This document shows positions 3,214-52,100 of a DNA stretch of 64,000 nt, piece by piece (position 1 is the stretch's first letter; every line of letters starts with the position of its first letter). The DNA is from Cheilinus undulatus (Eukaryota; Chordata; Actinopteri; Labriformes; Labridae), in the NCBI RefSeq assembly GCF_018320785.1, contig NC_054876.1, positions 17,692,212 to 17,756,211 of the forward strand. Reading direction: 5' to 3'. The notes below the pieces were generated by a model. It did not search any database. It was not told the DNA's origin and saw nothing but the letters and a program-made list of their open reading frames with translations. Made by a program: the position numbers and the translations under genes.

Positions 3214-6200
3214 CTTGCCAGGGCACAGAAGAAACCATGCAGTAAGCATATGATATATGGCTATCCTGTTAAGCTATTATACACTCTCTTATCCACCTTG
3301 TATTCCTGGGAGCTCTACTGTGCATATTATTAGGGATGAAACTCCCAGTGATACAGAGTAGAACAAACACATTTGTCCCAGTGGTTAACCATAGTAGCTA
3401 ACCACCAACAGTGGTTGTTTTAAAAGGAATTGAATCTCAAATTAGAAAATATCGATTATTTTTTTAGATCATATGTTTAACCAGATTGTGTCATACGTTG
3501 TGAGTTATATTTCCTGAAATGCCTTTGCAGAGTTCTGGTACCATTGGGGTTGTAATAATGACCAGACTGAACTACAGTTGTGTCTTCAACAGCAGCATCC
3601 ATTCAAATATTTAAGATGAGCTTGAACTTATCTTGTTTTTTTCCCCTACCTCCTTTAACAAAACACTATTGTCTTCATTACAATGTAAATGGCTAACCAA
3701 ACAGGAGGACATTTCTTCATATTGTCCTCTCATCCCTCCATAGCTGAAAGAAGATGAATAATTACATCATCCCATCTGAGATACAGTAGATAACGTTCAC
3801 ATAATTCAATCTCTGAATCACTCTAGTTATCAGGATTTGTGTCTTATCACATAGTAACAACACCGCCCAAGGTCACACCCAGAATTCACACAAGGTACTG
3901 TAAGGACTAGGGACAAGGTGGATGGATATACAGTTGAAACCAGAAGTTTACATACACTATATAAAAAGGCACAGAAACTTTTTTTTTCTCACCATCTAAC
4001 ATTAAATCAGATCAAATTTTTCCTGTTTTTAGTCAATTAGATTACCAAAATTATTTCTATTTGCTAAATGCCAGAATAATGAGAAAAGGATTTTTTTAGA
4101 CAATTTTTATTACTTTCTTCAAAGTCAGAAGTTTACATACACTAAGATTACTATGCCTTTAAACAATTTGGGAAAGCCCAGATGATAATGTCATGTCTTT
4201 GGAAGCCTCTAATAGGTTTATTGACAACATTTGAGTTAATTAGAGGCACACCTGTGGATGTATTTTAAGGCACACCTGAAACACACTGCTTCTTTGTGTA
4301 ACATCATGGGAAAATCAAAAGAAATCAGCCAAGATATCAGGAAGAGAACTGTGGACTTGCACAAGTCTGGTTCATCCTTGGGTGCAATTTCCAGATGCCT
4401 GAAGGTGCCACGTTCATCTGATCAAACAATTATACGCAAATATAAACACCATGGGAATGTCCAGCCACCATACCGCTCAGGAACGAGGTTAGGTTCTGTG
4501 TCCCAGAGATGAACGTGCTTTGGTCCGAAAAGTGCATCTCAACCCAAGAACAAAAGCAAAAGACCTTGTGAAGATGCTGGCTGAAGCTGGTAAGAGTGTG
4601 TCATTGTCAACAGTCAAACGAGTCCTGTACCGATATAGGCTGAAAGGCCACTCTCCCAGGAAGAAGCCATTACTCCAAAAGAAACATAAAAAAGCCAGAT
4701 TACAGTTTGCAAATGCACACAGAGACAAAGACCTTAATTTTTGGAGACATGTTCTGTGGTCTGACGAAACTAAAATTGAACTTTTTGGCCATAATGACCA
4801 TCGTTACATTTGGAGAAAAAAGGGGGAAGCTTGCAAGCCTGAGAACACCATCCCAACTGTGAAACATGGGGGTGGCAGCATCATGTTGAGGGGTTGTTTA
4901 GCTGCAGGAGGGACTGGTGCACTTCACAAAATAGATGGCATCATGAGGAAAGAACATTATGTGGAAATACTGAAGCAACATCTCAAGACATCAGCCAGGA
5001 AGTTAAAGCTTAGGCGCAAATAGGTTTTCCAAATGGACAATGAACCTAAGCATACTGCCAAACTGGTTACAAAGTGGCTTAAGGATAACAAAGTCAATGT
5101 TTTGGAGTGGCCATCACAAAGCCCTGATCTCAATCCCATTGAAAATTTATGGGCAGAGCTGAAAAGGCATGTGCGAGCAAGGCAGCCTACAAACTTGGCT
5201 CAGTTACACCAGTTCTGCCAGGAGGAATGGGTCAAAATTCCTGCAAACTATTGTGAGAAGCTTGTGGAAGCATATCCAAAACGTTTGACCCAAGTCATAC
5301 AGTTTAGAGGCAATGCTACCAAATACTTATGAAATGTATGTAAACTTCTGACTCTCAAGAAAATAATAAAAAATTGTCTAAAAAATTATCTCTCTCTTAT
5401 TATTATGGCATTTAGCAAATAGAAATAATTTTGGTAATCCTAATTGGCCAAAAACAGGAAAAGTTTAATCTGATTTAATGTAAGACAGTGAGAAAAAAAA
5501 GTTTATGTGCCTTTTTATATAGTGTATGTAAACTTCTGGTTTCAACTGTAAATACCATATAAACACAAAGAGGCGCATTATGGAAATTATTTCTATTTCA
5601 AGCCTTATGGGGACACAACAGTAGGCCTTTGCAGATGAAGTTTTGTGTATTTGGCACAGGGGCGAAAAGTAGCAAACTATATTTAATCATGTTGCTTTTC
5701 TGTGCTTATGCTTTATTTGAATATGATTTCTTCAGAGTTCATTGTGCTAAACCATGACGAAACAGTACTGAACCAAACCAGACCACTTTGTGGAAATGGA
5801 CCCATACATGATTGTAGAATGACACAGTTTGTCCAACCTTTAGATGGAGGCTTTTTCAATTCCTGCCTGCTGTCGTTTCTCTGCGAGTTTGTTTTTTACT
5901 TTTTTTGTCTGAGTATTTCACTACTTTCAGAACACAAATGTATCTGAAAAATTTAAAATGTTTTTTTTATTTTTTCTCTCCAACACCTGGCATAGTCGCA
6001 CACAGCTCAAAGCATTTGGTATAATCATATTAACATGCATAATTACATATTGTTGGCTGCATGATTGTGTTTACTGCTGACTGCTAAACAAATTGCCCTG
6101 TCTCAGATATTATAAAGACAACCTTAAACCCCTCCTTTTAGACCTCATCACCTTTACAAAACTGAGCCTTACCTCAGATATGGCATCTTCAGGCAGCTGC

Positions 6201-9200: not shown

Positions 9201-10309
9201 AAGTGTGGTTTCTTACTTGTCCAACAGGTAAAGTGGTGCAATGCTCACCTGAGAAGTATCTGGGCTGATATGGTACATTTCTGTGGTTTGCATGGGCCAG
9301 TAACCCTTGTGGAGAATGCATTGCACTGGAGCCTGTGGCTTCTCCAGCATAGTGGTGACTGAAAGATGCTGGTATCCCTTTGTCTGGAGCAAAAACAGAT
9401 GGAGAAAGAGCTGCACCCTGACCCCTCATCAGGTATCTTGGTGGGACTGGGGTTCTATTGTGAGCTATCCCAGGCTGGACTTGCTTTGGATAGTAAGGAT
9501 GAGTTAACTTCTGATGGGTGGGAGTATGCAGCAAAGACGTCTCTGCTCCAAAAGAGAACATCATATTAGCACCCTGTTAGAAAACCATTGTAGTGAAATT
9601 GAACCTACTGGCTTGGGGAATAAAATACTGTTTTAAGCTCTGCTGATGATAAACCTGGGATATTCATTTAAGTTAGGTTTGGATAAAAATAACAGTAATT
9701 GAAAGAGTAAAGAAATGCTTGATTTTTGTAATGTAATTAAACATTCAACAACTGTAACACCATTCTACAATATAGTTTAGTATATTAACACTACAGTACT
9801 GTTTTTACAATCTACAGCAGAACAGCAGAAGACGTGCAGAAAAACTTACCTCTTTTAACATTACCACTGCTCACTCTTGCATATTTACTTGGGGGCCGAC
9901 AGCTGACGTTTTCACCAGCCTCGATCTTGGCCTTGTTCTCGGCAGTGAGTCTCCTCAGTCCCACAATAAGTTCAGGATGATTTCGCTTGAAGATTGGGTT
10001 GTAAAAATGCTGATACTTCCCACTTTTCTCTTCTTCATCAAAGGGCTCTGTTTTCCTGAAGCCATAAAGATTGAGCTGACGGATGAAGCTTGAGAAGTTG
10101 GTGGTTTTGAAGGCATCGGGGTTTTCGATGGGGAAGGTGCTGGGAGACAGGATCTGTTTCTCAAAAAGTTCCTTATCAATGAGGATGCCCTCGCCTTGGC
10201 TGTCCCAGCGGATGGCAGGCTTTGCTGGGCTGTTCACCAAACGCCACAGTTTAGCGGGAAAGTTATTAGGGTTGATGCTGTCAGGCAGTGGACAATTACC
10301 AGCATCCAT
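3130..10309 (-). CDS. hsf5: heat shock transcription factor 5, complete five-exon CDS
   Basis: A DNA-binding transcription factor of the HSF family, acting in the nucleus; HSF5 in other vertebrates is testis-biased and needed in spermatogenesis. Coding exons on the minus strand, 5' to 3', are 10309-9850, 9542-9249, 6701-6610, 6529-6173 and 3213-3130. All have AG/GT borders and matching phases, giving 428 aa and a TAA stop. Residues about 12-125 form the winged-helix HSF domain, including [10 protein letters not shown] and the hallmark [13 protein letters not shown]. The start chosen is the ATG just before the family-like [14 protein letters not shown] segment. HSF5 rather than HSF1/2/4 is inferred from the divergent domain, the absence of an evident heptad oligomerisation repeat after it, and the supt4h1/tspoap1 neighbourhood. 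The last exon encodes an acidic 27-residue tail (VTSDYSED...). The final intron holds a Tc1 transposon in the opposite orientation. Confidence 0.92.
3931..5548 (+). mobile_element. Tc1-like DNA transposon of the Sleeping Beauty IR/DR type
   Basis: 1618 bp flanked by TA on both sides (3929-3930 and 5549-5550). The outer ends begin CAGTTGAAACCAGAAGTTTA and mirror each other. Inner direct repeats recur at about 4125-4143 and 5331-5350 (AGAAGTTTACATACACT-like), so each end carries two transposase-binding repeats, the IR/DR arrangement known from Sleeping Beauty. The transposase between them is broken by only two visible lesions. The element sits in the last intron of hsf5, antisense to it. Confidence 0.96.
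4304..5332 (+). pseudogene. Tc1/Sleeping Beauty-like transposase, inactivated
   Basis: Cut-and-paste transposase of the Tc1/mariner superfamily. The N-terminal paired-like helix-turn-helix begins [20 protein letters not shown]. The catalytic triad is visible: D in [11 protein letters not shown] in [10 protein letters not shown], and E in NPIENLW, with 34 residues between the last two (DD34E). Two lesions break it: a frameshift between about 4490 and 4520, and an in-frame TAG at 5021-5023 where relatives have tryptophan before VFQ. Full length would be about 340 aa. Few lesions imply a fairly young insertion, now not autonomous. Confidence 0.93.
5560..6172. other. rest of the hsf5 last intron
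   Basis: AT-rich intronic DNA between the Tc1 element and the 6173-6529 exon. Nothing further is recognised. Confidence 0.5.
6702..9248. other. hsf5 intron, no further exon found
   Basis: 2.5 kb AT-rich intron. Apart from the LINE tail at 7740-8065 and a possible degraded repeat with a poly-T run at about 9020-9125, no feature is supported. The phase-1 donor at 9248 matches the phase-1 acceptor at 6702, so no extra exon is required. Confidence 0.5.
7740..8065 (+). mobile_element. 3' end fragment of a LINE (Rex1/CR1-L2 type)
   Basis: The end of a reverse-transcriptase ORF is recalled by CTGCTGCCCTCAGGTTAGAGG, followed by a short 3'UTR with GAAGAGCCCAAGACAAATTTC and the end-like AAAAAGTTTATCTTTTG. 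This is the usual 5'-truncated tail of fish non-LTR elements. It lies in the hsf5 intron between the 6610-6701 and 9249-9542 exons. Family assignment is from remembered tail words, not a search. Confidence 0.5.
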
Positions 10310-10319
10310 GCTTGTGTTT
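9850..10319 (-). CDS. hsf5: hsf5 exon 2, start codon and DNA-binding domain
   Basis: Acceptor CGATCCTAG at about 10320 precedes AAACACAAGC and the ATG at 10309. The exon encodes the whole HSF winged helix and ends at AGAG/GTAAGT in phase 1. Having the complete DNA-binding domain in one exon is unlike HSF1/2, where as I recall it is divided by an intron. Confidence 0.88.
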
Positions 10320-11080
10320 CTAGGATCGCACACAAAAATGTTAGAGTTAGTAAATTCAAGGATTCACCTCATCTAAGTATCAAGCCAACTGAATTTGCAA
10401 GCTAATGCTAGCTGGATAAGTATATACCAGTTGCAAAGTCCCATTCAACGATAACACTACCAAGGCAGCCTGCTATCATTTACAATGTGACGAAAAATGG
10501 AAATTAAAGTAATTCCCCCCCTAACTTCTCCTTAATGTTTTTAAATGTATAATCCTGTTGTTTATTATTATTATTCAAAATGCAAAATATTTTAACAGTT
10601 TATAGACTGCATGGCAGTTACAGACATTTAAACTCCATGCAGTACAATTTGGTCGTCATGTGGGTCTCATCTTCGCGTGGCTACGCAAAACTAACTGCAA
10701 CTTTAAGCTAACAGCTAAAATAAGAAAAAGACCTAGTTGAATAATTTTACTCTCTAAAGCTTGATAACAAGTACGGAACCCATGTTAACCCAGCGCTTAT
10801 TAAAAACAATTTTGCAGTCAGGTACAGAGTGAACTTAAAATAAAAGTGACCTTAAAATCCAAGCAGTCCTTGCGACCTAAACTGCTAGCTTTATCATAAC
10901 TGGTGCGCAAGTGACACTAGCATGAACGGTTAACTTCGATTAGACAACTTTAGGTGATGCTAACTAATCTTCCCTCAGTCTGGTTATTATTTTCTTGAAC
11001 AGATTACTTGATATTAATAAAGGTATTTTCGTGTTTTTTTGAGAATTCTATACTAAAAAGAAGCATGATGATGACTGTAC

Positions 11081-13179: not shown

Positions 13180-14426
<1,247 letters not shown>

Positions 14427-17396: not shown

Positions 17397-18896
17397 CAGT
17401 GCTTAACAAATTTATTAGACCACCACCCAAAGTAAGGTTTATGCCACAGCTGCCCTAAATTAACAGCATTGGTAATTACCAAAATCATTTTTTATGTTTC
17501 TGCAATGGGTAATACACCAATATGTAGAAGCTCTTTAACCCAAATGATATTTTTAATGCTAAAATGTAATCATTATTGTTATCCATGAATTTTCAATTTT
17601 ACTGATTTACAAAAAACTGAAAAATATTAAAGCACATTAATATTTCTTCATTAATATGTCAAATTATAGTTATTTACTTGCATTCCTGAACAGAAAAATA
17701 AGTTTTAGTGGTTGAATGTTATGCTTGATTCATTTCTGACTTCTCAGAGAAGCCCAGTAAGCCGGCTCAAATTTGGGTATAAAAAGGTGAATTCAGTTTG
17801 AAATTCCTCATTCCTGTTCAAACTGGTAAAATGTGGAGAGCTCACTGAAACTCAAAGAGTCCACATGAAAGCACTTCATGATGCTGGATGGTCTCTGAGA
17901 CAAATAGGGAAAGACATAAAGTGTTCTCACAGTGTGGTCAAGCATGCTTTGGAGTCAACTGACCAGACTGGTACTTACAAAATGCGCCAAGGAGGAGGCA
18001 GGAACGAAAGTTAACTGAAGCAGATGTCAGACACCTCAAGATTTTAAGTACTAGAGACAGAAGGAAGACCACTGCTGATCTTCAGGCAGAGATGAATGCT
18101 TCTAGATCAGAGTCTGAGAAAGTCTTAGCAGAAGCACAAACACTAGACTGTTGATGACTGGAAGAAGGTACTCTGGACGGACGAGTCCAAGTTTGAACTC
18201 TTGGGTTAGCATCGTCGTGTTTATGTCCACAGAAAAGCTGAAGAACATTTTGATGCCAGATGCTTTGCACCCACAGTGAAACACTGTGGAGAGTCCATTA
18301 TTAGTGAGCAAATGAGTGAAAATGGATGGTATCATGAACAACAGCGTCTACCACAACATCTTAGTGCATCATGGAATCCCTTCTGGACTGAATCTGATTG
18401 GTCGTGGGTTCATATACCAACAAGACAATGACCCCAAGCATACTTCAAAGCTGTGCAGGGACTATTTGACCAAGAAAAAGGAATCTGGAGTACTGGAACT
18501 GATGGACTGGCCAAGTCAAAGTCCGGATTTGAATCCTATTGAACAAATTTGGGATTCAGTAGATTCAAAGATTGATCGCACAAAAGTTTCATCTAAAGCA
18601 AGTCTGTGGGAACAGCTAGAAACTATTTGGAACTCAATAACAAAAGAGACTGTGGAAAAGTACATAAAAACAATGGCAGCAAGAATGCAAGCTGTTATCA
18701 AGGCCAAAGGAGGCCATACAAAATATGAAGTTTTTTGGTTATTATGTGTGGAAAAAGGACTATTTAGTTGTTTCAGTTTGTTATTTGCCAAATAAATAAC
18801 AATAACATTTTTAGTTTTAACAAGTTTTTAAAAGATTTCTAAAATATTTGTGTTTTCTCATTTTTATGACAGGTGGTCTAATAAATTTAAGCACTG
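17397..18896 (+). mobile_element. Tc1/mariner transposon with DD38E spacing
   Basis: 1500 bp flanked by TA at 17395-17396 and 18897-18898. The ends begin CAGTGCTTAACAAATTTATT and CAGTGCTTAAATTTATTAG (inverted), each reading on into TTAGACCACC. A broken transposase lies between them. The last two catalytic residues are 38 apart, unlike the DD34E copy at 3931-5548, so this is a different subfamily, compatible with the Intruder (DD38E) group as I recall it. Confidence 0.92.
17831..18758 (+). pseudogene. Tc1-type transposase, degraded and internally deleted
   Basis: The N-terminal part near 17831 reads in broken frames (start-like ATGTGGAGAGCTCACTGAAA; words resembling the paired helix-turn-helix). 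A piece is missing near 18130, before the DDWKKVLWTDESKFE-like catalytic segment, which itself is followed by a stop. The C-terminal part from 18316 is open: YQQDNDPKHT supplies the second aspartate and DLNPIEQIW the glutamate, with KKKESGVLELMDWPSQ between them accounting for the four extra residues. The frame ends near the right inverted end. Confidence 0.85.
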
Positions 18897-34375: not shown

Positions 34376-34437
34376 CGGAAGAGGAGAGCAGAGAGCGGCT
34401 GTGACTGTTAGACCTCTTCCTGTGGTTAGATCACGTG
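34376..34437 (+). promoter_or_regulatory. ETS, ETS-RUNX composite and E-box cluster upstream of mir142
   Basis: An ETS core CGGAAG lies at 34376-34381. At 34416-34427 is CTTCCTGTGGTT, an ETS site fused directly to a RUNX site; its complement AACCACAGGAAG is the classic cooperative ETS-RUNX arrangement of blood genes. A perfect CACGTG E-box follows at 34432-34437. The local composition is GC-richer than the surroundings. Together with miR-142, a microRNA known to be blood-restricted, this suggests a promoter or proximal enhancer about 0.8 kb before the hairpin. Confidence 0.6.
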
Positions 34438-35243
34438 GCCGCGGAGGGTTCAAAAGGAGACGACTTCTTCTTCTTCTTCATCCGATCTGAGGACGGAGAG
34501 GAGAAGACACCTGCGAGGACGATGATCGCTCAGAGAAGCAGAGAGGGTTTGGGTAAAGTATAACGGCTGACATTGTGTATTTAAAGCGTGAATTATTTGT
34601 GCTTTTGTTTTTTTTTAGATCAGTCTGTTAACGGTAGACAAGTAAGAGTTTTAAACTTTGTTAACTTTGCATTTTTTTTAATCAAACTTCTGGTTAAGGG
34701 GCCTCCATTCAGAAGTTCAGTTTGAATTTGGATGAAATGACTTTTGCCTTAAAACTGACTTTTTTGGTCAATTGTTGCATAAATCTAACCTGTTTTATCA
34801 AAAATGTCTCCACTGGATCTGTTTGTATTTGTTCCATTTTTTCTTTAATGTAAAACCTAGCAATCTGCTATCATTGGGGAACATTTTGAATGACTTCAAA
34901 ATGTACAAACTGATCTTTTACTCAGACAGAAAGCTTACTCATGGCGGCCAAAATGGCTTCCAAAAGATAGCGCTTCCTCTGGCTCAGTTAAGCTTCAACT
35001 TTTTCCCCAAAAGGGGCCGTTTGACGGCTGAGGGTGGAGTCATTCTGATGATTTTTCTCTCATAATGAGGTTAGATTTGACTGAACTGTTTAAAACAGGC
35101 ATGCAAATGTTTCAAGACAATTCAGGAAGTCTGTTCTCTGAAAGCGTTGGGTGGTTTCAGTTTGGTGTCTGGGTGGGGGTTGGTGTGAGAATGCAGCTGC
35201 AGAAGTGTGAGAAGAAAGAAGACGGAGGAGGAGCGGTGGATGT

Positions 35244-35329
35244 ACAGTGCAGTCATCCATAAAGTAGAAAGCACTACTAAACTCCTCGCCACAGTGTAGT
35301 GTTTCCTACTTTATGGATGAGTGTACTGT
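35244..35329 (+). ncRNA. mir142: microRNA 142 precursor hairpin
   Basis: 86-nt hairpin whose arms pair from ACAGTGCA to its partner TGTACTGT. The 5' arm carries miR-142-5p at 35258-35278 (starting CATAAAGTAGAAAG), and the 3' arm carries miR-142-3p at 35295-35317 (starting TGTAGTGTTTCCTAC). Both mature sequences agree with the human ones as I recall them; only the loop and a few flanking bases differ. In vertebrates miR-142 is expressed in blood cells and shapes immune and haematopoietic development. The position between supt4h1 and tspoap1 is the conserved one. Confidence 0.98.
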
Positions 35330-35579
35330 TTTCTTCAGGGGAGACGAACACGACGAGGAGCCCGTGCGGGGAAAAAAAAAAAAAAAAAAAAAAAAAGGAA
35401 GGAGGAAGCTGCTTTGTCTCACAAGGCCACACATCACCCACTGTGTCTCCCCAGTCGGCTCACATGGGCGGTGTGCAGCATGTGGCAAAGATCACACCTC
35501 CATCCTCCATTTTTGAGTCATTTACTCTAAAAAAGAAGTCATGATCATGCATGTTTGCTCTGTAATTTCTGTGATTTTA

Positions 35580-35585
35580 AATAAA
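35580..35585 (+). terminator. mir142: poly(A) signal of the miR-142 transcript
   Basis: AATAAA, about 250 bases after the hairpin and followed by T/G-rich sequence. It faces the opposing tspoap1 signal at 35647. Confidence 0.55.
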
Positions 35586-35646: not shown

Positions 35647-35652
35647 TTTATT
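35647..35652 (-). terminator. tspoap1: candidate distal poly(A) signal of tspoap1
   Basis: TTTATT on the plus strand reads AATAAA on the minus strand. No gene other than tspoap1 lies upstream on this strand, so this would end a 3'UTR of about 4.2 kb. Other AATAAA-like words occur closer to the stop codon, so shorter forms are possible. Confidence 0.45.
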
Positions 35653-40197: not shown

Positions 40198-43100
40198 CTT
40201 CAAGAAGAAAAAACAATCTTAGAAGAGGTGCAATGAAAATGTGCTGCTATCGAGGACTTTGATAATCTTTGTTATGATTAAAAGGGGAACAGGAACGCAC
40301 ACAAAGAGGGCGGTACTGGATATTAGGTCTTTTAAACAAATAGAACCATACTGAAGTTAAGTTCTGGACCTTAAACAGAAGAGGGGTGCAGAACTACAGT
40401 TAAGTCTAAAGAAGGAGAGCGTAAGCACAGACTGAACAGGGGAGACTACTTTTAAAAAAATGAGCAGTAATACACCTATCAAAAACACTTACGATCATGT
40501 CTCAAAGTGAACAGTTCTTTTTTGTTTCTGCAAAAGGCCATGCAGGAAACGGTGGGACAAAAAACAAATGTGACAGGGAATGGTTAAAGAAACAGAAAAA
40601 AGAAGAAAAACACACAGGAAATATTTCCAAGAGATGAAAAAAAGTAGACTTTTCCACATAAATATTGTGTAAGGAAAATGACACATATTGAAAGACAGCA
40701 TAAACATTTCAGCATGCAAAGACATAAGACATGAAATCACTGGACTACCTGTGGTTCTTTTTTGGGTTCTGGAGCTGGCTGAGCAGGGATAAGCTCAGCT
40801 GGGGCGTCCTCTGGTAGAGCCTGCAGGAAGTTAGAGGGAACCAAACCTCTTTGTCCGTTCAAGTCTCCCTGAAAGAGACAAAAACATCAGAGAGTGAGGA
40901 CACCCTTGAACAACCAGCTTCTGCATCTACATTCTGCAACACCGTAAACAGTAACAACTGAAATCCTGTTCAGTGTAAGAGACTCTCAACAGACACTTGC
41001 AGATGTACAATGATGAATGAATAGATCAATACGCAAATCCAAATAAAAAATAACCACAGACTGAGGCAATTTCAGGTAACATGTTCAGACTCTGTGTGTT
41101 TTTTCAAGCAGTTAAATACAATACATTATATATAGAACAGTTTTTAGACTTGTGAGACAGATGCTATTCTTGGTCTTGTATAATATTTGGGTTTTTTGAG
41201 AATACAAAATATTTCAGGAAATTTAAAACAGGATCATAAGTAACTTTATTTTTCAAAAGGCTTTAAAAAAAGATGATTGGGAGCTCAATGCAAATTCTAA
41301 TCAAAAATCTAATCTAAAAATGTAGCTGATAGTTGCCAGCCCACTGAAATGCTGATTTTCCTGATACATTATAAAAAAGCATTCTTTTACATTTCTATCC
41401 TAATTTTATCCCTCAAGCCAATGACAGCCAGGGGCCAGAGGCGATATGCCTTCTGGTTCTGGGCCAAATTTGTCAACATAATATCTCAAAAATGCTTTGC
41501 AGGAGGCCCTTCAAACTTTGCAAAAATGCCCACTCTGATTTAAAGATCAACAATGTCAGACCAAGGGGCCTCATTTCATCTCCTCCTTGCGAGTCTTATA
41601 TTTTGCAAGTCATATGAGCAGGGTGCAAATAGAAAATCTAACGTTAAATTTAATATGTTTAAAGACCCAAGGTCCCCCTTCAGTCCGGTAACATTAGGAG
41701 CAGTTATATGTTTTGTACTGACTATAAGAGAGCACAAATGAACAGACTTAGTTTATGATAACTCCTTATTACAGTGATATAGTTCAGATTTTTGGTTGAA
41801 ATCAAAGCTAAATATTAAATTAGTTACTAACCTAATGCAAGATTTTATTTTTCCAGAGGAGATTTCTGGGATTTCATATTGATCCTGGACTTCATCAGAG
41901 ACTAGCTGGCTGTTTACTTTTATTGTACTGCAAATGCTTGCAGTACTAACATTAGCAGTCTCTGCAGTGGAATTACACTCAACATGAGCTTCACTAAAAG
42001 TTATTTTTCATTTATTAAAGCCTGAAATTAAGTCCAGGTACAGGCCGCAGCTATGGCTCCAACCCCTTCTCCTCTAACCACTTCTTAAACAACTAGCATT
42101 TACCCATCATTCACACACAACACTCCGTCACATACATTTTCCTTACTAGCTACAGGTGCAATGAAGCCTTGTAAGGACATATTGACAGGTCAGCAACATA
42201 AACAGGTATGTAAAATGAAGATCTGCCATAGTTCCATCAGATTCTCAGGAGATTAGGAATTGGTGCTGCACTGATACCGATACCAGGACCAGACAGTATA
42301 AACCTAAGTACTGGTACTCATAAAACATTGCAGATGCTGTTATCTATATCTTTTTAAAGCATGCAGTTAGCCTTTCATTTTGTGAGTATGTAGTCAAAGT
42401 TAGAGTCATGCCAGCAGTTTGCTGATATTTTAACATAAACGAGGATGATAAGTGTCAGCATGACCTGATTGGATTTTGTTTGTACAAAGTCAAAGATCAG
42501 AAAAACTTCCCAGCCTTTGTTTATGACCCATAGCTGTACTTTTACCCAACCAACAACTGTAAGATGCACACAACCACAGGCAGTAGATCAGCTATTCCAT
42601 CAAATCATTACCTCTGATTAATGTGCATATTAAACTACTGGATGGGAATTATATTGTATTTAAGACTGTTTTTGTATGTAATATTAATTGGATTGATATT
42701 AAATTCAAAGTATCCAGAATTTAAATATATGAACCGTGTTAAGGCTGTTTTAAGTCCAGTTTTCCTTCACTTTTTATTTGACCTATGCCATTTATTTCAT
42801 ATCTTACCCATACATGCTTTTAACACTGTATCAGTTCCTAATTTTTTTTGTACACCGAAGTTCCTTCTGCTGCTGTCATTATCATGTATGTTCCCTCAGG
42901 TAGGGTCCACAAAGTCTGATTTAATTTCTGTAAATAACAATGAGTATGTTAGTACTTACATAAAAGAAACCATCTTCATCCATGTCACCAAACACATGTA
43001 TGATGTCTCCCGCACTGAAGGTCAGCTCAGCCTGAACCGTCATAAAAATGAGCCACATAATGAGCTAAAAAATACACATATATTATACTACATCATAAAG

Positions 43101-46100
43101 ATATATTATGCATGTGCCTGTCTGACCTCGATGTCAGTGTTGGGGGAGCTCTCCCGTGGATCGTAATCAAAGATGGCGACCATCCTGCGAGCTCCAGGTG
43201 TGGGGTTTCCTGCAGGTGCAGCAGGGGCAGCAGTCTGGCTGGGATCTGCCAGTCAAACAGAGAGGGACATATGTGAAGTCTGACATCCTGATAATTAAAA
43301 GAGAGACGTGTCTCTGCAATTCCAATCAGTTCATCTGCATGCAGCTCGCCATGTCTGCGACTCGCTCAGCACCATGCTAAGCTGAGGGAGAGTAGTGCCA
43401 CAACAGTCTAACACTTGGAAATAAGAAAACAACAAGAGGTTACTGGTGGGAGTGAATATTTTTATTTCATAAACACAGATCATAGCAAAAATCAGCAGTC
43501 TGATGAGGACTGTACATAATTGCTGTTAGTAAAATACAAAAAAAAACATCATTAATGGTGATACGATGATGACACTTAAACTGTGAAATGAAATATGAGT
43601 TAGAGAAAGAACTGCTTGATGTACATGACTAGGGGATAATGAAAACTTGATTATATAGGATTTAATATCTTATTTATGATAGTCTGAAAAAAATCATTTT
43701 CAATTTAAGAGAAGCATGTTTATAAAACGTGTTTACCTTTTTTTCAGAGGAAAATCTGGGTGAAAATGTTCATTATTCCCAAAAATAATCAAACAGTCCC
43801 TAATGACAATGAATGATGGTGTTTTTTTTTAACCATATTCACACAGGGCCATTTTCTTTTAATTTCAAGCTGTAGACCAGCAGCTGTCATCAGGAGGATA
43901 ATATCCTACTGAAATGTTAAAGGTTACAAATCCTATTCATGTTAGAAATCAAACAAATCATTGTTGGTTCACCACTTTCTGACTAATCAGCAACAAAAAA
44001 GACAATATAGTAAAAGACAGAGGCTGTTTTCAAATGATTTCATATTTGATTATGAACCAGTTTTAATTTTGGCAGCTATTTCTAATTTTAGTCTTAGTTT
44101 TAGTCTTTAAATGAAATGCATTTTAGTTTTAGTCACATTTTAGTCATTTCTATCCTTTTTAGTTTTAGTCTAGTTTTAGTCGACAAAAAATAGTTTTAGA
44201 CCATAAAAAGTCCTCATATTTTAGTCTTTACTTTTAGTCCAAGCATTTATTTTCTTGCCTAAATCTGGTACCAAATCATGGTAGTGTGTTCTCTGCACCC
44301 TGCCAAACCTGGAGTCCCTGCTTTCTACAGCTGAGAGACAGAATAGATACAGCTGCACTGTTTTTTTGACAGATTTACCCACAGTAGAGAAATGTCACGG
44401 ATTTTGAATGTCCGATGAAAACTAAATTACATTTCAGTCTAGTTTTAGTCATCTTGATGAAAGCTAAACTTAATTTTTGTCAGTTTTAGTCATCACAGAT
44501 CTATTTTTGAAAGTTTTAGTCAAGTTTTTGTCATTAAAAAAAAGGCTGTCAACAAACATTTTTAGTCATAGTTTTAGTCGACAAAATTAACACTGTTATG
44601 AACAGCTACTGCATTAAAATGGCTGCATTTTCGCTGGGATGTGGGTTTTTGCTTCTTGATATGGATATTATTTAGACTCCACAATGATCTTAATCTTTAT
44701 TGATAATACTATTTATGCTTTCTTGTTTACTTGATGGAAAGACAAGATGACATGTTTTATTGCTTTTATAGCTCACTGGATCCTCCTAATGTTCTTCAGT
44801 TGGTCAGAAGAAATGTGACTCACTCTTAATAATATAAAATCCTTGATGCTGTTGTTGCTTGTTGTTTGTGACTCAAAAAGTATCGGTTTCACACATAGGT
44901 GTTGGTTAATGTTGAATGCAATATTCTGTCATGTTTTAGTGATTGGAAAATAAATAATACTAATTTAATAACATCATCTTTGAAAATCTTGGCATCTAAA
45001 GTGTTGTTAACTAATTATAACCTAATAGAAGCTTGTTTTCTTAGCTTCCTGTTAGGAAACATTTTTTGTAGGGATCAAGGCTGTTTTGGATTTTTCAATT
45101 GTTTTGTTTCAAATGTCAGTTTGGTTGAAATTGTTTGTATTTTACAGAAATGTTTTATTTCAGTCGTTTTCATTAGTTTTAGTGTTAGTTATAGTTTTTT
45201 CAGGGGCAAGACTAACAAAGCCTTAAAAAGTAAATATAACTAGAAAAGCACTCGGAGAGCGCAGACCTCTGCCATTAGCCCTATCTCCCAATAGTACAGA
45301 ATCCTTTTAAAAATTCCTGAAACCAGACGGGGATCTGGATCTAAACTAATCAGTTCCTCCTTATGCCATTTCTGACATTTCCTGAAAATTTCATGAAAAT
45401 CCATCCACAACTTTTTGAGTTATGTTGCTAACAAACTAACTAACAAACAAACAAACCCTCCCGATCACATAACCTCCTCTGCAGAGGTAACAAGAACAAA
45501 AACAACAACAAAACACTCTCAAACAGGCTACTATTCACTTTAGATTTTTTTTTAATTCAAATTTGATATTCAAATGCAACCCAAGACCCAACATTACCAT
45601 TGTTCATTCAAACAAATCAGACCATTTTACTCTCCATAGGCTTGGGTATCTGCTATTGATAAAGACTTAAACTATGGACATTTTGCTCCTAATTTTATTT
45701 TTATTTCATTTAGTTTTTCTAAGCATGGATTTAAGTTTTTTGGTTGTTTTTTTTTTGTTTTGTTTTTTATAAAGCTAAGATTTAGTTATTGGTTAGTCTT
45801 AGTTTACTATGATAACCTTGCTGTGCATGGTATTGGATTTTTGCTGATATCCAATATGCCCATACTTAAAAATCAATTTTGGCAAACGCTGATATCAATA
45901 TGATATTCAAATGAAGTCCTTAAAACAATTTAAAGTTTGAGGGTGATCTAAACGACAAATTTCAATCCTTCAAACTAACTTCAACACAAAGAGAATGATG
46001 GTCCAAAACTTATTTGTCTATGCTGCCAATACTTACAGCTGATATAGGTGGATTTTTATATCACAAATATCAGTTGTAAACAAATTTTCATATCTACAGA

Positions 46101-49100
46101 TAATAATTCAGGTTTTTCGGGGAATATCTGCTGGTGCCAATATCATGTTGATATTATCATGGCTACTTCAATTACCCCCCCCCCCCCCCCCAAAAAAAAA
46201 GAAGCACGGAAGTTTCCTTTATTCCTTTTTCTTCACTTTACATTTGACTACCTCATACTGATGCTTTATTTAGATGTCATCACAGTCTACCTGTATGAAA
46301 CCATGTTTTTTTTTTTACCTGTCTTTTGTTTTACCAATTTCAACACCTACATCACCTGACAGCAGTGTCACTGTGCTCAAAAATTAATGATCTGGGCCCT
46401 TAACAGAACACAGTTTGATCCCCATACCTAACTTTCATATTTTTGTTGTCTCTGAATTTGTTATTAAGTCAAAAGTAATGAAATAATAATGATTTGTCAG
46501 ATTCTCACCCGGAATTGAGACACTGTGACCTCAATCAGACCTCACGTGAAAATTGCTGCTGTGTGAATACAGTGGATTTAAAAAAGGATGCAACAGGATG
46601 ACAAATAAATGCAAAACACAGTGAGTGAAGTCATGCTGCAGTCCAGCAGATGTTGTAGAGTCTGCGTAATCATGCAGGAGCAAACAGAGGCTTCAACACT
46701 GACTACAAACCTTGACTGGAGGAGTCTAAACTCTCCTCCCACTGTACTGCAGACTCCACTGCAAGAGAGGAAGTGTGGGGGGGAAAGCATAACCACAGTC
46801 ACTAAATGTAATGAAGGTAAACCAATCTGAGGATAATGTATGTTTGAGTCAACACAGATAAAATCAAAGATGGAGGTCAGAGCAGATGGATGCTTCAACA
46901 AGTGAACTTTAGGTGATAAAGTAATGTATTTGTGACATTGAAGCAGAATTCTGGCATGCTTAAATTCTGTACTTTGGCCACATTCTGCTGCTATGTCTGC
47001 AATGAGTCACATGAATGAAAAGCTGACTCCATATCATGTATGTGCTTTTAAGGAAAAACTTGAGAAGATGCCACAGAGGCATATCAATGCAAATCTCAAA
47101 AATGTGGACCTGTGGAAAGATGCACAGCTTTTGTGTCCTTAAATAAAACTGTAGGACTTGGTCAGAGAAAGAGACTGCCAGTAGAGTTTTAGTGCATAGA
47201 TTGTGCTGTAAAATTTCATTTACTTTGACTTTCTGTCCTAAAAATCTCTGTGCGAGAAGTGAGAAGCAGCAACTGAAAGAGCAGAAGCTTGACTGAAAGA
47301 AAGAGAAGCAAACAAGAGAGGAGAATAGAGAAAAGAGGTGAGAGAAAACAATCTGCAGCGAGACACACCTTTCTTGGACCGTCTCGGTTTCGGCGGTGGA
47401 ACAGGGCGACGTGGAAGCTGTGCATGTGTGCGAGTGCCTTTATGGAGTTTTAGAAAGGAAAACCAAAATAAAAATAATTGTAACAAAAAAGAAAGACAGA
47501 GGTGGAATATTTTTGAGAGAAGCAGACCAGACAAAGTAGACAATGAGAAGCCAGCGAAGAGCAATTTAAAAACATGACAACCAGTGAGCAGCAGACACAG
47601 CAGTGAGAACAAGTGGAAGTGAAAGGGTTAAACCATCTGTATATATCACTCTGGGTAGAAAGTAGACGGAAACAGAAGCAAAGTGTGTGCTGAAGACATA
47701 CACTTTGACTTAAGTTTACATTTTCAGACACCTGCATGAAAAAGCCATCAGTGATTGAGAATATGTAGATGGTTATGATTCCCTTCATAGCAGCACAGTG
47801 AACAAAAATCCAGAATGACAAATATGTGCTGCTTCAAAGTGCCAATGCTTTATTTCTTCAATCACTTGTGGATGACTATGTCCAGTGTTCTTTTGCTTAC
47901 ACAGCGGGCCAACTTAAGAGGAAAATGTGAGATTTAAAATGTATATTTTAGGTCCAGATTCTGTTACACTTGTGCTGCTATTGTCACTTACCACTTACAC
48001 ATGAAAAGTAGTGATATTATGAGTCTAGCATTACAGTTTAAACCTATGGAAAAACATGTCTGAATGTTAGAATTTTGGAAAGTTCAGCTCAAGAAACATA
48101 ATACAGTAAAATTCAGAGTATAAGACGCAGTTTAAATAGCTTTTTTTTTTGTCATTTTAAAGTTGGCTGCCTCCAATAAAATGGTGCCATAAATATACCA
48201 GTCTAAAATGCTGAGAGACATCAATAAATAGACAGTTGAACCAATTACCTATCCTTTTTTATAAACACAGGCCTGAAATCAGGGTCAAATGCTCTCTTAA
48301 AAACTGTAATGAAGCCTCCCGCTGCTGTAGCTTCAATTTATGCCTGTGGCCTTCTAGTTAGAGCTTTCCACCTACACTTCACCAAATGTAAATATGTTTA
48401 GTTTAGCACTAGGCATGTTGTAGAAACAGCACAACATGACAGTTTTTTTTAAACTACAAAACAAACTCAAAGTTGTATGTAGGCTGTTGAGGGTTATACT
48501 CACACATAACTACTCAATTAAAGAGACAGTAACAACTTTATGCATGATATTCAACGGGAAAGAGGAATTAAGGCTAATGTTAGCCATGCTTTGCAAAGCA
48601 TATCGGGCCCACATCATTCCTGATGACACAATATTCCTGTGATGAATCTGACTGTTTTTCTAAGCATTTTGTCCTCTGTAGACTAGTCGGTTATATACAA
48701 TTTAAATGGGCATTTTGTCAAATGATGAGTGCCTCTGTGCTAGTTCTCAGTCATCCAGGGCATGGCTATACAAATCTTGAACCAAAAAGGGTGACTGGAC
48801 TTGGTTTAGATTCTTGAATATGTTTTGTCTTCTTTCCAAAAGGCTTCTTCAGTTTTCCAACTCAGAACGTAAAAGTTTTGGAGGAGAAGTGAAATACTTC
48901 AAGGACAAGCCCACTTGCCCCTTATGGATCAGGCTTTGGGTATACAGTTCAGAATATAAACCTTGTGAAGTGCTGTTCTGGTTAAAAAGACCCCTCAGTT
49001 AAATACAACTCTAGACAGCACAAATGATACTGAAACAGCTACAAAGCTGCACAGAAACCTAATGCCATGGACTTTGCTAAATGCAATGAAACTCATTGCA

Positions 49101-52100
49101 CAGAAAGGCAGGTTAAACTATTTTTTTCCTCAGAGACCCTCCCAAAACAGACTGCATCTTACACACCAGAACCAGAATAAGCTTTGTTGGCCAAGTATGC
49201 TATCACAAAAAGGAATTTGACACTGGTTAGATTTGCTTTCGATGTACAGGAATTGAAAATAAAATATTGAAAAAATAAAACTAATAAAACATAAAAATTA
49301 AGATTTAAATATGTATAAGCTCTTGTTATACGTCTAACCCATGTATACAGGCTGTGTGCAATGATGGTAAGATTGCAAGGTGTGCTAAGGGTGCCAGAAA
49401 GCGGAACAGAATTATTATAGGAACATGCAATAATATGGCAGTTACATGAGGTAAATAAAACAGTGCGACTTATATTATGAATTTTACATTAAAAAGCACA
49501 CAGCCTTAGTATGTTTACAAGGATCATGTTTTTCGTTGTGTGGATGCTACAGTCTTCACTGACCATTCTACCTACCTATCTTGTCCATGGAGGCGGCTGT
49601 TGACAGGAAGCCCTGCTGCAGCAGCTGCTGCCGAGTCTCCTCATCCTCCACCTGGATCTCTGACACCATGTTACATGGCACATATCCTAGGCGACCACCA
49701 CACTCTCCTCGGTAAAACCCATCTGCATCTTTATCGCCAAAAACCTGGACAGAGGAGGGTAACATGTATTCACTGAACTGATTCACACAAACACATTTGT
49801 AAGCAGGATTGTTCAAATTTTTGAGTCATGTTTGGGTTGCCTCAGGACATACTTTGATGATCTGTCCCTCAGTGAAGGGCAGCTCTTCCTCAGCAGCATC
49901 TGGATTGGGTGACATGGTGGCAGGATCATAAGGGAAGAGGGCTACAAAGATCCGTATGTCACCGTCTGGTTTTGGCTTTGCTGATTCACCTCCTGCAAAC
50001 AGACAAAAGTAACAATACTTCATGTGGTGTCCTTCTTCAGCTGCCTTATGATTGTCATATTAAAAGCTCATTTATATTTTTTAATTGTTTATGGCTCTTA
50101 ATGCCCCAATGGTAAAATCAGTTTCCTCTTGACCCGTATGCAGTGCCAGTTCAAGAAAGGATATTTAGATCCCTGTTACACCTCATCTGGAGACAGAATA
50201 ACAGGGCAAAGTCATTGTACTCTAATCCACCATCAGAGATGCAATAAAGGGAAAGGGGGGCAATGTGTATACTTAAAGCATACGAGACAGAACAGTACTG
50301 TGTGTATCATACCTGAGTGTGTGAATAAGACGCTCTGGCTCTATGTTCACACAGCATGACCTGTGTTTCTAAACATGTAATGCAATATGAAACCACACAC
50401 TGATACACTGATGTTATACCAATACAGATGTAATATTTAAGTATGGAGAGATATAATGAGGGCAGAACTTCTTTATTTTGCTGTTGCCAAATCAACATCT
50501 ATATAAGACTTATTAAGTCTAAAGGCCGGCTCAGACTACAAGATTTTTTTGGTCGTTCATGACAGCATCATGTCAGACTATGCAACAAAAATCTTGTCCA
50601 GTCTTGGCCGACAACCTGGCCATACTACAAGAGTGATCCTGACCGCTCACCGTATGCTGACGTCACCACTGTCTCTGCGACTAAGTGCAAGTTCACAAGT
50701 TGACGGGGGTGTCAAAGAGTGTCTGTCAATCTATAACAGAAGCGCTCTAAGAATTGTAGTGGTCTTTTGCTCGTAAAAAAGGAAAATAAACAATTATGGT
50801 TTCGATTATGGATAACAGTTATGGATGTGTCAAGAGGAGGACAATATGGACTGGCTCTCCTTCAGATAGGACTTAAGGTATTCATGTGATAATGTACATA
50901 AAATAAAATGTACACATTAGTTTTAGGGAATAAAAGGGGATAAAAAGAGGTAAATCTTGTAAATGATGGTGCAAAGATAAGGAGCAAATGCTCTCCTGTT
51001 GGTAGACGTCAGGAACCACGTCGTTGACGTCAGGTCAGGGTGTCAAACTAGACAACGATGTAAGAACAATTCTGACATGCTTAATTAGTGACCATATAGA
51101 CCTGATGACTTTTAGCCAACTGTGATCATAGATGTAGTCATTACAGAGGCAGCTGAAAACAGGGAGAGCCTTTGGTAATGTCCCTTTGTTTCTTTTTTCT
51201 TTTGTTTTTTTTTTGATTTTGTCAAAAAAAGTTCTCAACAGTTATATATTAAAAAAGAAACTAAAGCTAGTAAAACCAACAACTGACACATTCAGCTGAA
51301 AGCCACCAGTTTTCTTGGTCATTTTTTAAACTGTAATACTGATCTTATTTTAATGACTTTTTACAGGTTATGACATCAAATCCATGGGACTGACTTTATC
51401 TGTCGCCAGCTGGTTAGACAGACATGTCTGTCTTCCTTCTTTTAGTCATATCATATCATCAAGAAGCTTCTATAATATTGGCACATTATTGGCTCCTGCT
51501 AAATCCTATTTGAAAATATAACAACAAAATGCACATGGCAGTTTTGAATGTAACCAAACTTGCAGTAGTTCCTCGCTGAATGTCTACAGGCACAACTATA
51601 TTTGAAAACATCTACAGAAGAAACCTGACGGTCTATGCATTTAGGAGGATCAGCGTTGGCAAAAGGTAAAACTTATTTAATAATGCCTGCACATCTGATA
51701 TAGGACAAGAACAATATCTTCCATCTCAATGCATACATTTACATTGCATGCAATGAATTTCCCTTCAAATACATTTTTCTTTTGTAAACTTGAGAAAATT
51801 AAAATTGAATTCAGTATTGCTAATAATATACTACTTCTACACTCCACACACAAGTCATGCAGCACCTGCAACAAGCTCTGAACAGTAAAGCCAGCCTTCC
51901 CTTCCCCCACTGCCTGCAAACTGTAGAGCTGCCATGAGCAGAGTTTGCAGAGCACAGGCATGTCCTTAAAAAAGGTAATCAAGCTAAACCACTGATCCTA
52001 AGATTAGCGAGCTGTTTGACAAATGGGCACTCCTACATGACCTGAAGCAACAAGCAACAGTGAAAGGAGTATTCAAGCAACTCTTACATTTAATTGGGCA

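Follow-up and report, generated by a model that had tools for sequence, protein, structure and literature searches.

The 86 nucleotides at positions 35244 to 35329 of the window, i.e., of the whole 64,000-nucleotide stretch of Cheilinus undulatus DNA that was analyzed, raise two questions: do they encode a microRNA and, if so, what does it tell us about the genes around it? A first-pass annotation, made from the letters of the DNA, proposed a perfectly conserved miR-142 with both arms unchanged, located between supt4h1 and tspoap1. miR-142 is a well-studied microRNA of blood and immune cells. The features of the hairpin are the following.

35244 to 35329, plus strand: mir-142 precursor hairpin, from its match to Rfam RF01896 and its fold.
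35258 to 35278, plus strand: annotated form of miR-142-5p, 0 substitutions relative to the form printed in PMC2762519.
35295 to 35317, plus strand: annotated form of miR-142-3p, 0 substitutions relative to the form printed in PMC2762519.

Positions 35245-35329 of the plus strand match the Rfam mir-142 model (RF01896) at 109.8 bits (E 6.7e-23 in the 64 kb window), where the gathering score is 57 bits, and the match is full length, covering model positions 1-85 of 85. At a permissive Rfam threshold, four matches are present around the locus, namely mir-142 on both strands and two that are far below their own gathering scores. Folding had been proposed as a check on the annotation, and the stem is indeed continuous: the 86-mer forms a single long stem with both arms paired (-47.4 kcal/mol, z -10.9), and none of 200 dinucleotide shuffles is as stable. 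The reference mature forms are those of miRBase, as given in Table 1 of a mouse T-cell study (PMC2762519), and both are found in the window letter for letter. The AUAAAG seed is present in the window 5p, and the mismatches to the Rfam consensus are outside the arms: the loop differs, and there is a U for C at position 35256. The human mature forms have the same letters as the printed mouse forms. The hairpin thus resembles mammalian mir-142 in its full-length family match and its identical annotated arms, and the gene is the known, ordinary and strongly conserved microRNA miR-142. The statement that both arms are unchanged has to be limited to the annotated 5p and 3p, which are exact, because position 35256 is the first base of a longer 5p isoform and that base differs. 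A run of 25 A residues, a simple repeat, is located directly 3' of the hairpin (35372-35396, plus strand).

The proposed location is also supported, with Spt4 exons upstream of the hairpin and SH3/RIM-binding-protein exons downstream of it.

About 13363 to 13431, plus strand: first coding exon of supt4h1, from matches to SPT4 chains in PDB (best E 5.5e-9), its end inferred from the match.
13689 to 13811, plus strand: Spt4-domain exon of supt4h1 (PF06093, 43.3 bits).
40740 to 50059, minus strand: SH3 exons matched in a RIM-binding-protein gene that is tspoap1 by its position; all of the SH3 and RIM-binding-protein matches are on this strand.

The first supt4h1 exon is within the open piece 13180-13461 (plus strand), and the gene is ~21 kb upstream of mir-142. 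On the other side, SH3 domains were matched in pieces 49571-49825 and 42924-43064 (minus strand), the former having a RIM binding protein 2 chain as its best match (E 2.7e-15). tspoap1 is a member of the RIM-binding-protein family, and by family and position we assign the window gene to it; its short SH3 exons do not distinguish it from the other RIM-binding-protein genes of the genome. Its exons are on the minus strand at higher coordinates; therefore, its 3' end faces mir-142. Thirty-four open pieces of at least 75 amino acids are present between supt4h1 and mir-142, including one that overlaps the hairpin. Nine of them were run against Pfam; eight have no family and the ninth, 18316-18792, is a transposase remnant. 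Tc1-like transposase remnants, with HTH_Tnp_Tc3_2 and DDE_3 matches, are at 4493-5020 and 18316-18792 (plus strand). An exon for an HSF-type DNA-binding domain is at 9815-10363 (minus strand, 81.2 bits); by its place it is presumably hsf5, a name that we take from the human gene order.

A search of the genome (1.17 Gb, 46 contigs) by DNA and with the Rfam model revealed at least two mir-142 loci, the one in the window (C12) and one at C2:39020484-39020569. Two candidates were scored by DNA and 64 of 243,731 by the Rfam model, and the locus counts are lower bounds. Against the mir-142 model the C2 copy has a score of 107.5 bits, and its fold has an energy of -35.5 kcal/mol (z -5.3). The mature arms of the two copies are identical. 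The eight differences between the 86-mers are in the base of the stem on its 5' side (three of 14 positions) and in the loop (five of 16), with none in the 5p (0 of 21), the 3p (0 of 23) or the 3' base (0 of 12). Judged by sequence, kept arms beside a diverged loop and 5' base are the pattern to be expected of a microRNA under selection. A second copy with identical arms would also suit a window copy that is a dead duplicate, intact but silent, with C2 making all of the miR-142. We regard this as most improbable; arm drift would be expected in a long-dead copy, but none of the 44 arm positions and none of the 12 positions in the 3' base have changed while the loop and 5' base diverged, and a block upstream of the hairpin, described below, appears to have been kept. 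The locus is almost certainly one of two mir-142 genes found in the genome, and would be independently transcribed and give miR-142-5p and miR-142-3p.

Zebrafish likewise has two copies, miR-142a and miR-142b (PMC4860776, PMC2427041), and each of its two 5p forms is grouped under AUAAAG (PMC2427041), the seed that was noted above for the window copy. In zebrafish mutants for miR-142a, blood stem and progenitor cells are lost, and mutants for miR-142a/b have defective neutrophils (PMC4860776); reads of dre-miR-142a have been obtained by sequencing (PMC2684549). It is likely that the C12/C2 pair stems from the teleost genome duplication.

In the 39,601 bases examined around the C2 copy, SH3 exons of a RIM-binding-protein gene are on the minus strand, the nearest ~0.7 kb downstream of the hairpin, and no piece of supt4h1 was matched at E 1e-3. 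The window exon 49571-49825 matches C17 (80.7 bits), C5 (69.1 bits) and C2 (59.2 bits) in the genome, and so two loci score above the one beside the second mir-142.

C17:23969555-23969731: RIM-binding-protein SH3 locus.
C5:11856145-11856321: RIM-binding-protein SH3 locus.

Exon by exon, C2 is second to C5 for one exon, behind both C17 and C5 for two and behind C17 for one; for another exon it is the only match, one that the ~3 kb compared from C17 and C5 may not reach. Because these short SH3 exons do not show the C2 gene to be the twin of the window gene, that pairing rests on its place beside mir-142, and the reading of C12 and C2 as a duplicated segment rests on position. By eye, open frames around C2 positions 39014367 and 39037196 (plus strand) resemble a carbonic anhydrase and a 14-3-3 protein.

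The first-pass annotation also considered that miR-142 firmly anchors the orthology of the whole window, which is only partly right. Because a second copy with identical arms is present beside another RIM-binding-protein gene, the hairpin by itself points to a duplicated pair. The better anchor is supt4h1, since the only match in a genome search with PF06093 (eight candidates scored) is in the window.

In both fish copies the RIM-binding-protein gene is downstream of mir-142 on the opposite strand, i.e., the two are tail to tail. In contrast, human and mouse mir-142 are upstream of BZRAP1/TSPOAP1, and rat mir-142 is within the first exon of one BZRAP1/TSPOAP1 transcript (PMC2632650); in mouse, Bzrap1 follows mir-142 downstream at a distance of 3.5 kb, and a deletion of mir-142 also removed some of the 5' region of Bzrap1 (PMC4556616). 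Mammalian mir-142 is upstream of BZRAP1 (PMC2632650, PMC4556616), whereas the window mir-142 is downstream of the tspoap1-like gene and opposite to it, and the tail-to-tail arrangement of the two fish copies is apparently unlike that of mammals. If the neighbors are indeed tspoap1, either that gene or mir-142 was inverted in the lineage leading to fish or in the one leading to mammals, and if the arrangement is shared by descent, the inversion preceded the parting of the two fish copies. Among the literature matches listed, none deals with how tspoap1 is oriented in fish, which is not proof of absence. The tail-to-tail neighbor and an upstream block, both common to the two copies, are the small new points of this analysis.

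Beyond the observed sequence, fold, family membership, second copy, neighbors and common upstream block, we infer the transcription, processing, cell type and targets of the window mir-142. Three further candidate features are the following.

34401 to 34460, plus strand: block common to both mir-142 copies, candidate core promoter of pri-mir-142 (blastn score 25).
35580 to 35585, plus strand: AATAAA, a possible polyadenylation signal for pri-mir-142 (pattern match).
35647 to 35652, minus strand: AATAAA, a possible polyadenylation signal for the convergent tspoap1-like gene (pattern match).

An independent transcript would begin some 0.8 kb upstream of the hairpin, possibly at 34401-34460, and may terminate near the AATAAA at 35580, a motif with 187 sites on the two strands of the window. 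Drosha and Dicer would then cut the stem to yield miR-142-5p and miR-142-3p, which presumably repress mRNAs through seed pairing, chiefly in cells of the blood and immune system.

The block is the best same-strand match between the 2.5 kb upstream of the C12 hairpin and the 2.5 kb upstream of the C2 hairpin, and it is about 0.8 kb upstream in C12 and 0.3-0.4 kb upstream in C2. None of 300 dinucleotide shuffles reached its score of 25, although their maximum of 24 leaves a narrow margin in a comparison of two sequences. Ninety-two other window tiles, which overlap and include both strands, scored at most 21 against the plus strand of the C2 stretch. A second upstream match, on the minus strand (E 3.6e-4), is outside this shuffle and tile control. 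In both copies the block has, in this order, CTGTTA, CTTCCTGTG and CACGTG, which we take to be MYB-, ETS- and E-box-like; the ETS/E-box pair occurs once in the window and in none of 100 shuffles. The C2 block contains AATAAAA, while the C12 block has neither AATAAAA nor TATAAA. CpG observed/expected values are 0.75 and 1.04 in two 250-base bins around the C12 block and 0.57 in the bin of the C2 block, the latter not above bins elsewhere in its stretch (0.59). In human, pri-mir-142 starts 1,205 bp before its precursor, and the core promoter combines a TATA-box with a MYB site and an E-box that are within 100 bp upstream of this start (PMC3827369); the MYB- and E-box-like sites of the fish block resemble it. 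On these grounds 34401-34460 is a candidate core promoter of mir-142, and such a short block common to the two copies may be of use.

The position at which the precursor differs from the consensus beside its 5p arm has a possible bearing on processing.

35256, plus strand: U replacing the consensus C in the Rfam alignment; the C2 copy has a C, which is unpaired there.
35333 to 35336, plus strand: CNNC motif, beginning at +16 (16 bases past the 3p end) in both copies.

CNNC is a processing motif. Position 35256 is two bases 5' of where the annotated 5p begins, and in the predicted fold its U pairs with an A, which closes the mismatch that would otherwise be at an alternative Drosha site; in the C2 fold, besides the unpaired counterpart, an internal loop further down the stem is wider than in C12. 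In mouse T cells, the most often cloned 5' end of miR-142-5p was CCCAUAAAG (13 of 21 clones), with CAUAAAG in six of 21; these start variants are attributed to alternative Drosha cuts, and the alternative site sets the seed of the mouse miR-142 isoforms (PMC2762519). The longer 5p form from the window copy would begin UCCAUAAAG. A literature search with this form gave no match in RNA or DNA spelling, and among the matches listed for fish papers that print the mature sequence, none had either spelling. The pairing difference at 35256 could shift Drosha cutting between the C12 and C2 copies. If so, the copies would have identical annotated miRNAs and different Drosha cut sites, and the duplicates would have divided the work by choice of isoform and not by mature sequence; we put this forward as a doubtful proposal built on the predicted folds. 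The two fish copies, which have the same mature sequence, could serve as a natural test of how mismatches in the stem set Drosha cutting.

The genome search also matched mir-142 on the reverse strand at both loci, and in the window this match is above the gathering score of the family.

35244 to 35328, minus strand: reverse strand of the hairpin (75.6 bits).

This strand folds at -41.3 kcal/mol (z -8.1), and the reverse strand of the C2 copy, with 68.9 bits, has a slightly more stable fold than its plus strand (-37.2 versus -35.5 kcal/mol). It might therefore be proposed that the locus works on the minus strand as well, with read-through from the tspoap1-like gene giving an antisense hairpin and a 5p with an AUAAAGU seed. 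Constructs of antisense pre-mir-142 have yielded mature products in human cells, although no such products were detected in brain (PMC3827369). Even so, we give the proposal very little credence; near-perfect hairpins tend to fold on both strands, and the minus-strand AATAAA listed above is on the way from the tspoap1-like gene to the hairpin. The likeness to human antisense mir-142, which is in an intron of BZRAP1-AS1, is that the window reverse strand is also a miRNA-like hairpin (PMC3827369); the difference is that the minus-strand gene here is the downstream tspoap1-like gene.
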